A program made the position numbers and the translations under genes. Source: Candidatus Poribacteria bacterium (lineage in GTDB: Bacteria; Poribacteria; WGA-4E; PCPOR2b). Taken from it: DNA of 32,433 nt. Shown one piece after another: positions 7,833 through 26,155 of the stretch. The notes under the pieces were generated by a model that was not told where the DNA came from, did no database searches, and saw nothing but the letters and a program-made list of their open reading frames with translations. Within the stretch, counting starts at the first letter, position 1; every line of letters starts with the position of its first letter. The stretch is from positions 1-32,433 of the forward strand of contig JAJEAL010000065.1 in assembly GCA_022822785.1 (NCBI GenBank). The letters run 5' to 3'.

Positions 7833-8454
7833 GCGTCCCGCCCACAAGGGGCTATTCATCCTTATATCGGGTCCCTCTGGAACCGGCAAAACGAGTGTAA
7901 TCAAAGGGCTCTGCGAAAGCGATGCAACATTAGCGTTCTCGATCTCTGCGACGACCCGCCCCCCCCGTTCCGATGAGATCGACGGCGTTGACTACTATTT
8001 TTTAGACCAAACCGAATTTGAAGACCAGATTAGTTCTGGTGGATTCTTGGAATGGGTAAAATATGGCGGACACTACTACGGGACCTTAAAATCCACAGTC
8101 GAATCCACAATTGCAAAAGGTAAGGACCTCATTTTAGAAATTGATGTACAGGGCGCAATGAAGGTCAAGGACCTCGGCTTCCGGTGTATTAGTATCTTTC
8201 TCTTACCTCCCTCCCTCAACAGTTTAGAGAAACGGCTTCGCAACCGCAAGACAGAATCCGATTCAGAACTTGAACAACGTCTACTGACAGCGAAATCAGA
8301 GTTTGCTTCTGTTAAAGACTACAACTACTGTATCCTGAATCCGGACCACAATGTCGAAGAAGCTGTGACTCAAATCCGCCACATCATCTCTGCAGAACGC
8401 TGCCGAATTGATGAGCAGCTTCTCGATGCAATCTCTCAAGAGTTTTGCCGCTAG
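7822..8454 (+). CDS. gmk: Guanylate kinase
   Basis: This enzyme phosphorylates GMP to GDP with ATP. The 210 residues include the P-loop GPSGTGKT (about 14-21), the GMP-binding region SATTRPPRSDEIDGVDYYF, and the lid and core segments GNxYGT-like HYYGTLKSTV and LEIDVQGA. The length is normal (about 205). The start overlaps the yicC end by 11 nt. In many bacteria gmk is followed by rpoZ and then coaBC. Here rpoZ is not found, and the next 2 kb are occupied by disrupted genes and an IS. Confidence 0.95.
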   Translation: MWNKRPAHKGLFILISGPSGTGKTSVIKGLCESDATLAFSISATTRPPRSDEIDGVDYYFLDQTEFEDQISSGGFLEWVKYGGHYYGTLKSTVESTIAKGKDLILEIDVQGAMKVKDLGFRCISIFLLPPSLNSLEKRLRNRKTESDSELEQRLLTAKSEFASVKDYNYCILNPDHNVEEAVTQIRHIISAERCRIDEQLLDAISQEFCR

Positions 8455-8521
8455 TACCTCTATCGGTAAAGCTATCCCCGCTCCCACAGTGTCTCCCGAT
8501 ACCAAGAGAAGGAGGATCGAT

Positions 8522-8768
8522 ATGAACGGAGATGACAGGGCAAAAACCCACAACACACCCCAAGTTGAAATCTCAGTTAGTAACTTCGGACCGATTGCAG
8601 AAGCGGATCTCGATCTGCGCCCACTGACAGTGTTTGTCGGACCGAGCAACACCGGCAAGACCTACCTCTCTGTGCTGATCTATGCGCTGCACCGGGTCTT
8701 TGAAGGATTTTTAGAATTTCTTCCACTGTATAACCTAGAGGTAGCTCCGCATTTAAGTGTGGTCATAA
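8522..8768 (+). pseudogene. 5' fragment of an AAA-family (AAA_15/AAA_21-like) ATPase, truncated by an IS
   Basis: From ATG 8522 (AAGGAGG 6 nt upstream) about 82 residues of a SMC/RecF-type AAA ATPase can be read. ISVSNFGPIAEADLDLRPL is the characteristic N-terminal strand, and VGPSNTGKTYL is the Walker A motif. The protein then runs into the IS end and a stop at 8785. Walker B, signature and sensor regions, normally a further 300 or more residues, are absent and do not resume beyond the IS. These proteins often act in toxin-antitoxin-like or defence loci, but the remnant should be inactive. Confidence 0.75.
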
Positions 8769-9890
8769 CAGATAGCGTTGAATAAGTTCGTTGATTTTGG
8801 CAGCCGGTCTTCCTCGTCGTCGAGGTGGTTGCCAAGGTGGCCGGGGGACTCGATAACAGAGCAACTGTTGCACCGTCCAGACCTGCTCAGTGATGTTAGC
8901 AACCATCGCTGGCGTTCTTTCTACCCATCGCCGACGGTTGTTAGGCAGATAAAGTCCGAGTCGGAGACTCCGATGCGGTGTGCAAAAGTTGTAGACACAG
9001 CCCATCAGATACATCGCACGCTCAATCGTTTGGAGATGGCGTGCCAATCCCCGTCCCCGACGCACCAACACACTGATGCGCGCGCGAAATGTCCCATTAA
9101 GCCTTTCGATGTAATTCACATGTGCAGTCATTGTGTGTTGCGTTTGTTTTAGCAAGGTCTGCCCCTGCTGCGATGTACCACAGACAATGCGTCTGACGAC
9201 CCCCATCACTCGCCTAGGTTGCTTTTGGGGGTGCTGCTTAATGAGCTGCACCATGCACAGATGATGCCACAAGCGAAGTCGAGGGCGTCCGGGCTTGCCA
9301 GTAAAGATGGGGTTGCCAAAGACCTGCTTAATCGTCGAAACATAGCTAGCCAAGCCGTCAACGCACAGCAACAACGGACGATACAACGCACACTGATGCA
9401 CCTATTGGATAAGCCGCCGAATCAGTGCACCGTCACGGCAACTACTGACCATACCAGCAATCCACAAGCGAGTCGGGACGGCAATCGCCAGTGCCACCCA
9501 CGCAATGCCACCTTGGTATTTGACACGTATCTCATCAGCTTGTACCTGACCCAGGTCACGCGGGTGATGCACCAGATGCTGATGAACCTGCTGGCAGTGC
9601 TCACCTGCGCGCTGCTGCCAACTCGCTACGGTTCTTTCATCTATGTCAAACGCGGCAACAATCGCTTGAAGCGGACACCCATAAGCCAAGAGCGTGACAA
9701 CCTGCGTGACAATCTCACACGAATACCGAAGACGGTAGAATACAGTCCCTTTGCTTTGAGTAAACGTCCGCTTGCACTCATGACAGATGTAACGGTTCTG
9801 CTTGCGACTATGAACACCTATATTCCCCCGACCCACTTTTCCCCTTGCCGGGCAGGCGGGATTGTGACAAAATATCTGTTGGGGATCCAT
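8763..9890 (-). pseudogene. Transposase interrupted by an in-frame TAG
   Basis: The frame from ATG 9890 encodes a Cys4 zinc ribbon (CHNPAC ... CHEC, about residues 8-38) and a helix-turn-helix (LQAIVAAFDIDERTVASW). Then comes a QADEIRVKYQGG strand that may carry the first catalytic Asp. The frame ends at TAG (9404-9402) after RRLIQ. It resumes at the next codon in the same frame with VHQCALYRPLLLCVDGL, probably the second Asp. It continues through YIERLNGTFRARISVLVRR, probably the catalytic Glu, and YNFCTPHRSL, and stops at 8763. Without the TAG it would be a single protein of about 375 residues. Because both parts share one frame, a nonsense mutation explains the break better than programmed frameshifting. 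AAAGGAG precedes the ATG. Confidence 0.75.
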
Positions 9891-9940
9891 TCGCTGACTC
9901 CTTTATTGTTGGGATACATAAAGATAGTCAGTGGATCCCC
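9881..9940 (-). promoter_or_regulatory. Stem-loop that would sequester the transposase RBS and start codon in read-through RNA
   Basis: Three paired blocks stack in an imperfect hairpin: 9881-9889 with 9932-9940 (9 bp), 9894-9899 with 9926-9931 (6 bp), and 9901-9906 with 9918-9923 (6 bp), around an 11-nt loop. In minus-strand RNA the 3' arm contains the AAAGGAG Shine-Dalgarno (9898-9904) and the transposase ATG (9888-9890). Confidence 0.6.
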
Positions 9941-9950
9941 TACTTGTCAA
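9921..9950 (-). promoter_or_regulatory. Putative transposase promoter inside the IS right end
   Basis: On the minus strand TTGACA (9945-9950) and TATCTT (9921-9926) are 18 nt apart. A start site about 7 nt past the -10 box would lie near 9914. That is in the loop of the 9881-9940 stem-loop, downstream of the stem's 5' arm. Confidence 0.5.
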
Positions 9951-9972
9951 GGCATTACTCAACACTTTACTG

Positions 9973-10314
9973 GAGTGCTACCAACAGCAAAGAGAACGAC
10001 TTTTAACCACAGATTATGTGATTGATGAAACGGTAACTCGGCTCAGATATGATTGGACTCACTTAGGAGCGGTTGAGTTTCTCAACTTTATTGAACGTGC
10101 TAAAAAAGCCACTGAAGAAGCAGTTGCTTTAACCGTCGCGGCAATCGACAGCGTTCTATTTCAAGAAGCAGAGGAGATCTTTCGTCAATACAACACTGCA
10201 AGGTTATCATTTACAGATTGCACCAGTTTTGCGGTTTGTCGGAGATGTAACATTTCAGAGGCGTTTGCTTTTGATCGACATTTTCCAATGATGGGAATAA
10301 CGCTATGTGGGTAG
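9973..10314 (+). pseudogene. 3' fragment of a PIN-domain (VapC-like) ribonuclease gene, N-terminus lost at the IS
   Basis: Residues beginning ECYQQQRERLLTTDYVIDET, continuing through EAEEIFRQYNTARLSFTDCTS and ending EAFAFDRHFPMMG match the second half of PIN-domain proteins. The central acidic residue is in VIDET, and later Asp residues are in SFTDC and AFDRHF. The first strand with the conserved DTS-type Asp (about 40 residues) is missing. A frame from GTG 9931 reads from IS DNA into this fragment and could make a hybrid protein, but it would lack an active-site acid. Intact PIN proteins are commonly Mg-dependent RNase toxins. No antitoxin gene is seen beside it. Confidence 0.65.
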
Positions 10315-10368
10315 TCGGTTTCACCCATATCGGTGTTTCTATTCGCTTATGTTAAGAAATCGTGCAAC

Positions 10369-10402
10369 AGAAACCGAGTTTTGCCGAAAAAACTCGGTTT
10401 CT
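10369..10402. repeat. 34-bp perfect palindromic repeat, copy 1
   Basis: The arms AGAAACCGAGTTTT (10369-10382) and its exact reverse complement (10389-10402) enclose the 6-nt loop GCCGAA. The same 14-bp arms recur at 32370-32403 with loop GAAGAA. Here it lies between the PIN fragment and coaBC and could act as a terminator, but the second copy's position does not suggest that as its general role. Confidence 0.85.
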
Positions 10403-10456
10403 CTTCGCGTTTTTCACTTTCTTTTTAGCCCATCATAAGTACAAGAAAACAACACA

Positions 10457-23064: not shown

Positions 23065-23110
23065 CCGATACCCTCTCCCTTCAGTTCAATCGTTTGCGCT
23101 CTACGGTATG

Positions 23111-23275
23111 CAAAAAAAAGCCTCCTGTCGTATAGGAGGCTTTTTTCCATATCTATGGAACGCACCTACCAATCCCCTCAATTTCGGTCTGAAAGTAGAA
23201 ATTGGTAAGATTTCGTCCGCCTCGGTAGGCTCGAATACGGGTTTAAGCAAATTTGCACCTACTGTCTACGACGAC
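23111..23275 (-). promoter_or_regulatory. L10 (rplJL) autoregulatory mRNA leader
   Basis: The minus strand contains the L10-leader landmarks: GTAGACAGTAGGTGC (23255-23269), then CTTAAA, then GCCTACCGAGG (about 23220-23230). The first and last pair to form the stem and internal loop recognised by the L10-L12 complex in many bacteria. A second GGTAGGTGCG (23161-23170) follows, then the terminator-like hairpin at 23114-23146. Identification is by eye; a covariance-model search for the L10 leader would confirm it. Confidence 0.7.
23114..23146 (-). terminator. Terminator/attenuator hairpin in the rplJ leader
   Basis: AGGAGGC and GCCTCCT arms flanked by six complementary A/T pairs enclose a 7-nt loop. 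A T-run follows on the minus strand. It sits 49 nt upstream of rplJ, at the 3' end of the L10 leader. It fits an attenuator that sets rplJL expression relative to rplKA. Confidence 0.8.
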
Positions 23276-23302
23276 ACCTAATGTTAATATAATATATTCA
23301 AT

Positions 23303-25449: not shown

Positions 25450-25523
25450 CAGGCCAGGAGGGATTCGAACCCCCAACATTCGGTTTTGGAGACCGACGCT
25501 CTAGCCGTTCGAGCTACTGGCCT
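25450..25523 (-). tRNA. trnW: tRNA-Trp (CCA)
   Basis: Acceptor arms AGGCCAG and CTGGCCT pair fully. The D arm contains TAGCTC. The anticodon loop CTCCAAA reads CCA, and the T arm GGGGGTTCGAATCCC is normal. It lies just upstream of secE, a common arrangement. Confidence 0.95.
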
Positions 25524-25547
25524 GCAAGACAAAACGGATTGAAGACA

Positions 25548-25700
25548 CTATCGAATCTCTCTGTGGGGTGTGTGCTTACGGCAATAGCGACAATACTTCT
25601 TGAACTCGAAACGTTCTTGCTGGGTTCTTTTGTTTCTCGTCGTAACATAATTTCGCTGTTTGCAATCATCACACGCCAGCGTGACTATATCTCTTGGCAT
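25548..25700 (-). CDS. rpmG: Ribosomal protein L33
   Basis: The protein has 50 residues, from ATG 25700 to TAG 25548. The sequence begins MPRDIVTLACDDCKQRNYVT and ends in the standard L33 style. It has two C-x2-C pairs (CDDC and CRYC), so it is the zinc-binding form. The FEFKKYC segment is typical of the family. It lies between tRNA-Thr(GGT) and tRNA-Trp, where tuf is found in E. coli and many others; rpmG before secE is common. Confidence 0.95.
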   Translation of the reverse strand: MPRDIVTLACDDCKQRNYVTTRNKRTQQERFEFKKYCRYCRKHTPHREIR

Positions 25701-25749
25701 AGTACTCACTCAATTTCGTTCGACTACCGTGAGTCAAAAAATAGGGTGG

Positions 25750-25822
<73 letters not shown>

Positions 25823-25859
25823 ATAACTAGGAAACAGACGTCCGGCAGCAATATCTGAA

Positions 25860-25932
25860 AGCGGGAGACGGGACTTGAACCCGCGACAATTGGCTTGGAA
25901 GGCCAATGCTCTACCAACTGAGCTACTCCCGC
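25860..25932 (-). tRNA. trnG: tRNA-Gly (TCC)
   Basis: Acceptor GCGGGAG pairs with CTCCCGC. The stem TTGGC/GCCAA encloses loop CTTCCAA, giving anticodon TCC. The T arm contains GGTTCAAGT. Confidence 0.95.
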
Positions 25933-25980
25933 GTTTTGCTTGGGACGTCACAGGTACACGTCTCCGACGCTTAGAAATGA

Positions 25981-26062
25981 TGGGCGGAGAAGGATTTGAA
26001 CCTCCGCAGGCTTAGCCAACAGATTTACAGTCTGCTCCCGTTGACCACTTGGGTATCCGCCC
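25981..26062 (-). tRNA. trnY: tRNA-Tyr (GTA)
   Basis: Acceptor GGGCGGA pairs with TCCGCCC. The loop CTGTAAA gives anticodon GTA. The long variable arm (TTGGCTAAGCCTGC region) expected for bacterial tRNA-Tyr is present, making it 82 nt. Confidence 0.95.
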
Positions 26063-26082
26063 ATTTGATAAGACAAAAAGGA

Positions 26083-26155
26083 AGCTGGCGAGAGGATTTG
26101 AACCCCCGACTAAGTGATTACAAATCACTCGCTCTACCAACTGAGCTACGCCAGC
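26083..26155 (-). tRNA. trnT: tRNA-Thr (TGT)
   Basis: Acceptor GCTGGCG pairs with CGCCAGC. The stem AGTGA/TCACT encloses loop TTTGTAA, giving anticodon TGT. It is the first gene of the operon, a few bases after the predicted transcription start. Confidence 0.95.

Follow-up and report, generated by a model that had tools for sequence, protein, structure and literature searches.

A left-end inverted repeat in an IS1-related insertion sequence of Candidatus Poribacteria: probable IS10-like control of the transposase by antisense RNA and fold-back

INTRODUCTION

The transposase start site of IS50/Tn5 is sequestered in RNA secondary structure. The same holds for IS200, according to the account of Beuzon et al. 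(1999) given in PMC2965389. RNA-OUT, the antisense RNA of IS10, has a length of 69 nt. Complementarity to the initiation region spans its first 35 nt, and its end is at nucleotide 47 of IS10, outside the mRNA start and in the transposase promoter (PMC5006887). Protection of IS10 from external promoters is claimed in the title of Davis et al. (1985), as cited in PMC2965389. In ISPpu9, the antisense RNA Asr9 is transcribed from a promoter at the transposase start; the −10 of this promoter overlies the ribosome-binding site of the transposase, and the −35 falls within the first codons (PMC8450116). Here we compare these systems with an element found in a Ca. Poribacteria contig.

RESULTS

The insertion sequence and its copies

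The window, by which we mean the whole analysed stretch of 32,433 nt, carries the element on its minus strand (Table 1). The ends were defined by contig C12 of the same genome and, in G003, another Ca. Poribacteria genome, by seven left and five right ends. Contig C12 has positions 9903-9984 in common with the window and diverges beyond them, and all seven left ends in G003 start with GGTAGCACTCC, which fixes the end of the element in the window at 9982. The hairpin described below, which the first-pass annotation had placed at the end of the element (9943/9972), is therefore about 40 bp internal. Four pairs of left and right ends in G003 are flanked by identical 8-bp target duplications (AAGAGACG, ATTGGTGT, CAAGGCAC, and CCTAAAAA), and the window copy has no target duplication (flanks TTGCTGTT versus TCTAGGTT). 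Since its flanks differ and the duplication is missing, we take the window copy to be a rearranged copy or a repeat-induced assembly junction. Its neighbors are a PIN-domain (VapC-like) gene without a start (9931-10314) and a fragment of an AAA_15 ATPase gene (8408-8740).

Table 1. Positions of the element and its observed and predicted control signals in the window
Feature	Position	Strand	Basis
IS1-related insertion sequence, 1243 bp	8740..9982	-	Ends from C12 and G003 copies
Left terminal inverted repeat GGTAGCACTCCAGTAAAGTGTTG	9960..9982	-	Sequence and G003 copies
Right terminal inverted repeat, plus-strand reading GGTAGCTCCGCATTTAAGTGTGG	8740..8762	+	Homologous right ends in G003
Transposase frame, 375 codons and stop, TAG-interrupted at 9404-9402	8763..9890	-	Open in relatives
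Hairpin (inverted repeat) over Shine-Dalgarno, ATG, and codons 2-4	9878..9943	-	Fold and covariation
5' arm, complementary to ATG and codons 2-4, within promoter spacer	9932..9941	-	Fold and covariation
Shine-Dalgarno AAAGGAG, inside 3' arm	9898..9904	-	Sequence; paired in fold
−35 TTGACA of transposase promoter	9945..9950	-	TTG ahead of 5' arm kept in relatives
−10 TATCTT of transposase promoter, predicted start ~9914	9921..9926	-	−10-like hexamer in relatives
−35 TTGCCG of predicted antisense promoter, codons 14-16	9845..9850	+	Codon 15 GCA, codon 16 AGR
−10 TGA-CAAAAT of predicted antisense promoter, codons 6-8, spacer 17	9868..9873	+	A as third base of codon 6
Predicted antisense RNA, stem-loop from first bases, weak U-run here	9880..9945	+	Prediction

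The best-scoring family for the transposase was NCBIfam IS1 (NF033558), with 34.2 to 44.5 bits, which does not reach the cut-off of 100 bits. A Pfam profile search of the transposase gave no family over the threshold, and the IS4 family was absent from its Pfam and NCBIfam matches. The predicted DDE catalytic residues, D119, D178, and E262, are invariant across seven relatives. The target duplications of the four G003 end pairs, 8 bp long, agree with the 8 to 9 bp expected of the IS1 family. A two-frame programmed frameshift of the IS1 type is absent from the full-length relatives, which have a single frame of about 365 to 415 codons. Single-frame IS1-like members exist. Because NF033558 is the best match but stays below its cut-off, the DDE residues and the 8-bp duplications are present, and the frameshift is absent, we classify the element as IS1-related rather than as a member of the IS1 family. 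A search of plasmids found no DNA relative, and a search of viral contigs found no protein relative.

The in-frame TAG of the window transposase lies between D119 and D178, ahead of both D178 and E262, and the window copy is probably defective, with no full transposase made. A reading of this TAG as a programmed stop was considered and dropped, as the aligned relatives have sense codons at that site.

Elsewhere in the window, positions 10340-10420 hold a palindromic interspersed repeat of about 80 bp (AACAGAAACCGAGTTTTGCCG...CGGTTTCT), which has some 40 further copies in the same genome with 83-93% identity and looks like a MITE or REP-type element. Five clustered tRNA genes (25450-26155) and a ribosomal protein L10 leader (23104-23289) lie on the minus strand.

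Hairpin and promoter in the window copy

The arms of the inverted repeat (9878-9889 and 9932-9943) are lengthened by a second helix to a minus-strand stem-loop of about 60 nt, and the ATG (9890-9888) and the Shine-Dalgarno sequence both lie within its 3' arm. The minimum free energy of the hairpin is −31.4 kcal/mol, compared with a mean of −14.2 (SD, 2.9) for shuffled sequences (z = −5.9), and none of 200 shuffles was as good. The transposase promoter, TTGACA-N18-TATCTT, matches at 10 of 12 positions, and its predicted start falls in the hairpin loop; a transcript that begins there forms no stable structure at the start site (z = +0.4). The first-pass annotation had described a stem-loop that buries the Shine-Dalgarno sequence and the ATG in its 3' arm, and a promoter that would start transcription in the loop. 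The stem-loop was borne out when the two transcript forms were folded, and the promoter is present as a sequence match. The pairing, which that annotation had expected to persist in other intact copies, is lost in none of the seven G003 sister copies: all of them preserve the base pairs of the main stem, and one copy is without a single leader A.

Covariation of the two arms

Relatives of the transposase comprised L024 from an Anaerolineae genome (54% identity) and further finds from its class (396 genomes) and its phylum (400 genomes), the source genomes being mostly metagenome assembled. Despite their diverged sequence, most relatives with a readable left end again fold into this extended stem, with the start codon inside it. 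Because MAFFT placed the arms 1 to 2 bases out of register, register-free duplex swap tests were used rather than per-column pair counts. The test set consisted of 28 nonredundant leaders (<80% identical) from Chloroflexota and Ca. Poribacteria. Cognate pairing of each upstream region with the codon arm (−2 to +12) averaged −14.8 kcal/mol, versus −8.8 kcal/mol with the arms of others, and none of 100,000 permutations was as extreme, with p-values that ignore phylogeny. Control segments taken 20, 40, and 60 nt further down showed no cognate preference, and a swap test with a narrower arm, run earlier, had the same outcome. Pairs of nearest relatives were used to limit the effect of relatedness; the cognate arm was stronger in 13 of 14 of them, and in the remaining pair, L080/L081, the two codon arms do not differ. 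The type of pair varies at most arm positions, at synonymous and amino-acid-changing sites alike. Covariation of the hairpin in other copies, proposed earlier as a check, was thus found. Two relatives, L093 and L097, fold poorly, and the fold scores of some others are modest.

Hairpins of 9 to 11 bp (z = −4.4 and −3.9) occur at the transposase start of two Deinococcus elements with transposases 44-45% identical to that of L024. Taken together, the Deinococcus and Meiothermus plasmid relatives with start hairpins are L102 (520-590, z = −4.4), L103 (530-600, z = −3.9), and L105 (495-595, z = −2.7). Judging from these sequences, the arrangement may extend to Deinococcota.

Read-through and self-made RNA

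A TTGAMA-like −35 stands ahead of the 5' arm in most relatives, and 16 to 18 nt further on comes a CATNCT-like −10, often with TG before it. The promoter spacer thus contains the arm complementary to the start codon, so that RNA made from the element's own promoter would be without the 5' arm. The predicted cost of opening positions −16 to +6 had a median of 17.1 kcal/mol in read-through RNA of the relatives, versus 6.0 kcal/mol in self-made RNA, and was higher for read-through RNA in 30 of 31 cases. The same truncation applied to 30 open reading frames of the window as a control shifted the opening cost by a median of 1.3. The same calculation gave 13.1 versus 3.7 kcal/mol for IS10, in line with the earlier appeal to IS10 logic as far as the model goes, and 11.5 versus 6.5 for E. 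coli IS1. By these predicted energies, a hairpin hides the start in read-through RNA and self-made RNA escapes it, as in IS10-type control.

Predicted antisense promoter and RNA

Mismatches in the stem are more often A.C than G.U on the sense strand (31 versus 16), so that the fold is at least as good on the opposite strand. This A.C excess led us to suspect an antisense RNA; the strand test had been planned to confirm pairing in the sense RNA, and its opposite result was followed by a search for an antisense promoter.

Over 278 codon columns of the transposase gene, the excess identity at synonymous sites was highest at codon 15 (rank 1) and codon 6 (rank 2), with codons 16 and 8 at ranks 5 and 6, and its mean was 0.19 over codons 1-20, versus about 0.06 elsewhere. 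The third base of codon 6 is A in 27 of 27 relatives, across six amino acids. Codon 15 is GCA in 23 of 25 relatives against a background of 16%, and codon 16 is AGA or AGG in 23 of 24 against a background of 9%, the p-values for these codons again ignoring phylogeny. In antisense orientation, these constraints fall on the TTG of a −35 (TTGCNG) and on the last T of a −10 (CAAAAT), with a 17-nt spacer between the two hexamers. Each of the two hexamers matches the E. coli consensus, which may not be that of Poribacteria or of many Chloroflexota, at 4 of 6 positions.

The predicted antisense start, about 7 nt past the −10, corresponds to sense position +11, the base of the stem, and the RNA predicted from it, about 60 to 70 nt long, is a single stem-loop of about 60 nt. 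Of 26 relatives, 20 have a U-run after the stem (5 or more U in 8 nt; 5% expected by chance), and 15 have UUGG or UUUGC in the loop region (3.7 expected). In the window, the predicted antisense RNA overlaps the self-made mRNA by about 35 nt (a 24-nt leader plus 11 nt). Sequence and codon constraint together point to an outward promoter in the first codons and a stem-loop antisense RNA, which are also features of IS10-type control. Rfam gave no match at the transposase start in the window and seven relatives. The RNA would escape Rfam because the sequence of its stem varies freely, the complementarity and the codon-embedded promoter being what is kept.

The U-run of the window copy is weak (CUACUUGUC). 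Its predicted antisense RNA gene is otherwise intact, despite the TAG in the transposase. With a weak U-run and an in-frame TAG, the RNA-level control system of this copy may be decaying.

DISCUSSION

We consider it likely that the left-end inverted repeat exerts IS10-like two-way control of the transposase at the RNA level, through an antisense RNA and through fold-back. An outward promoter in transposase codons 6-16 would drive synthesis of a short antisense RNA. Transcription would begin at the base of the repeat, and the RNA would form one long stem-loop and, in most relatives, end in a U-run. About 35 nt of it would be complementary to the start of the transposase mRNA, namely, the leader, the Shine-Dalgarno sequence, the ATG, and codons 2-4. 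With its loop oriented toward the 5' end of the mRNA, it would block ribosome binding, also in trans. RNA entering from neighboring genes would contain both arms and fold its own start site shut, and RNA from the element's own promoter would start in the loop, beyond the 5' arm, and remain translatable. Coding for the antisense RNA may be the main role of the repeat.

It has been proposed in the first-pass annotation that the repeat silences read-through RNA by folding back, and this could be all that it does, with no antisense RNA involved. The covariation of the arms and the promoter geometry agree with this proposal, and the geometry holds in the window copy and, according to the modeled energies, in diverged relatives. 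However, the proposal is incomplete: it misses the antisense layer and leaves unexplained the extreme codon bias at codons 6, 15, and 16 with its 17-nt spacing, the U-run, and the strand bias of the wobble pairs, so that fold-back by itself appears unlikely to us. A system in which pairing is selected solely in the antisense RNA, the folding of read-through RNA being a by-product without consequence, would account for the wobble bias and the predicted antisense promoter. Yet the sense strand is very costly to open in almost every relative, which would silence read-through RNA in any case, and IS10 has both effects together; we regard this possibility as quite improbable.

The repeat might also be a palindrome that acts in DNA, as a site bound by transposase or by a repressor, or as a cruciform, which would suit its position near the left end and its inverted symmetry. 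This is very hard to reconcile with complementarity that is kept while the sequence varies, with coding in one arm and about 42 nt between the arms, and with the overlap of the promoter and start signals of both strands. The modest single-fold scores of some relatives would be expected of a chance fold or of local composition, but the shuffles, the swap test, and the nearest-relative test leave such an origin practically no credibility. The covariation led us to reject both the operator (DNA-site) reading and the chance reading.

We therefore return to combined antisense and fold-back control. Since the element and IS10 have no transposase in common, the likeness between them is read as convergent, and control of the IS10 RNA-IN/RNA-OUT type with fold-back most likely evolved convergently in the IS1-related lineage, as judged from sequence. 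We also lean toward regarding the predicted RNAs as a previously undescribed, fast-evolving antisense RNA family of Chloroflexota, Ca. Poribacteria, and perhaps Deinococcota that coevolved with IS1-related transposase genes, in which promoter, stem, and terminator overlap the transposase codons and promoter within about 100 bp, convergent with the two-layer control of IS10. A literature search found no account of such control for IS1-like elements, although most subscription papers lay outside its coverage. If this interpretation is true, IS10-style control also exists in a transposase family unrelated to that of IS10, in phyla that have received little study, and the combination of an antisense RNA with read-through RNA that folds on itself is a solution that recurs and no peculiarity of a single element. 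The many natural variants of one antisense/target pair would be useful for working out pairing rules.

Among the described systems, IS10/Tn10 shares an antisense gene over the transposase start (predicted in the present element), an overlap of about 35 nt with the mRNA, and an mRNA start in the loop. The likeness extends to an antisense RNA ending in the transposase promoter, to read-through RNA folded shut, and to the same contrast in opening cost, as far as these are modeled. However, IS10 belongs to the IS4 family, and its transposase is unrelated. In the element described here, the codon arm extends over the ATG plus codons 2-4, and among relatives the sequence of the stem is free to vary. 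IS200 and IS50 likewise conceal the start site in a hairpin, but they belong to other transposase families, and in IS200 the element's own transcript is repressed too. E. coli IS1 has a related transposase with a zinc-binding N terminus and GGT- terminal repeats; it differs in its programmed frameshift and in that no arm pairs with the first codons (duplex, −7.4 kcal/mol). ISPpu9 resembles the present element in having the promoter of an antisense RNA, Asr9, at the transposase start, but it belongs to the IS110 family, and Asr9 stimulates translation (PMC8450116).
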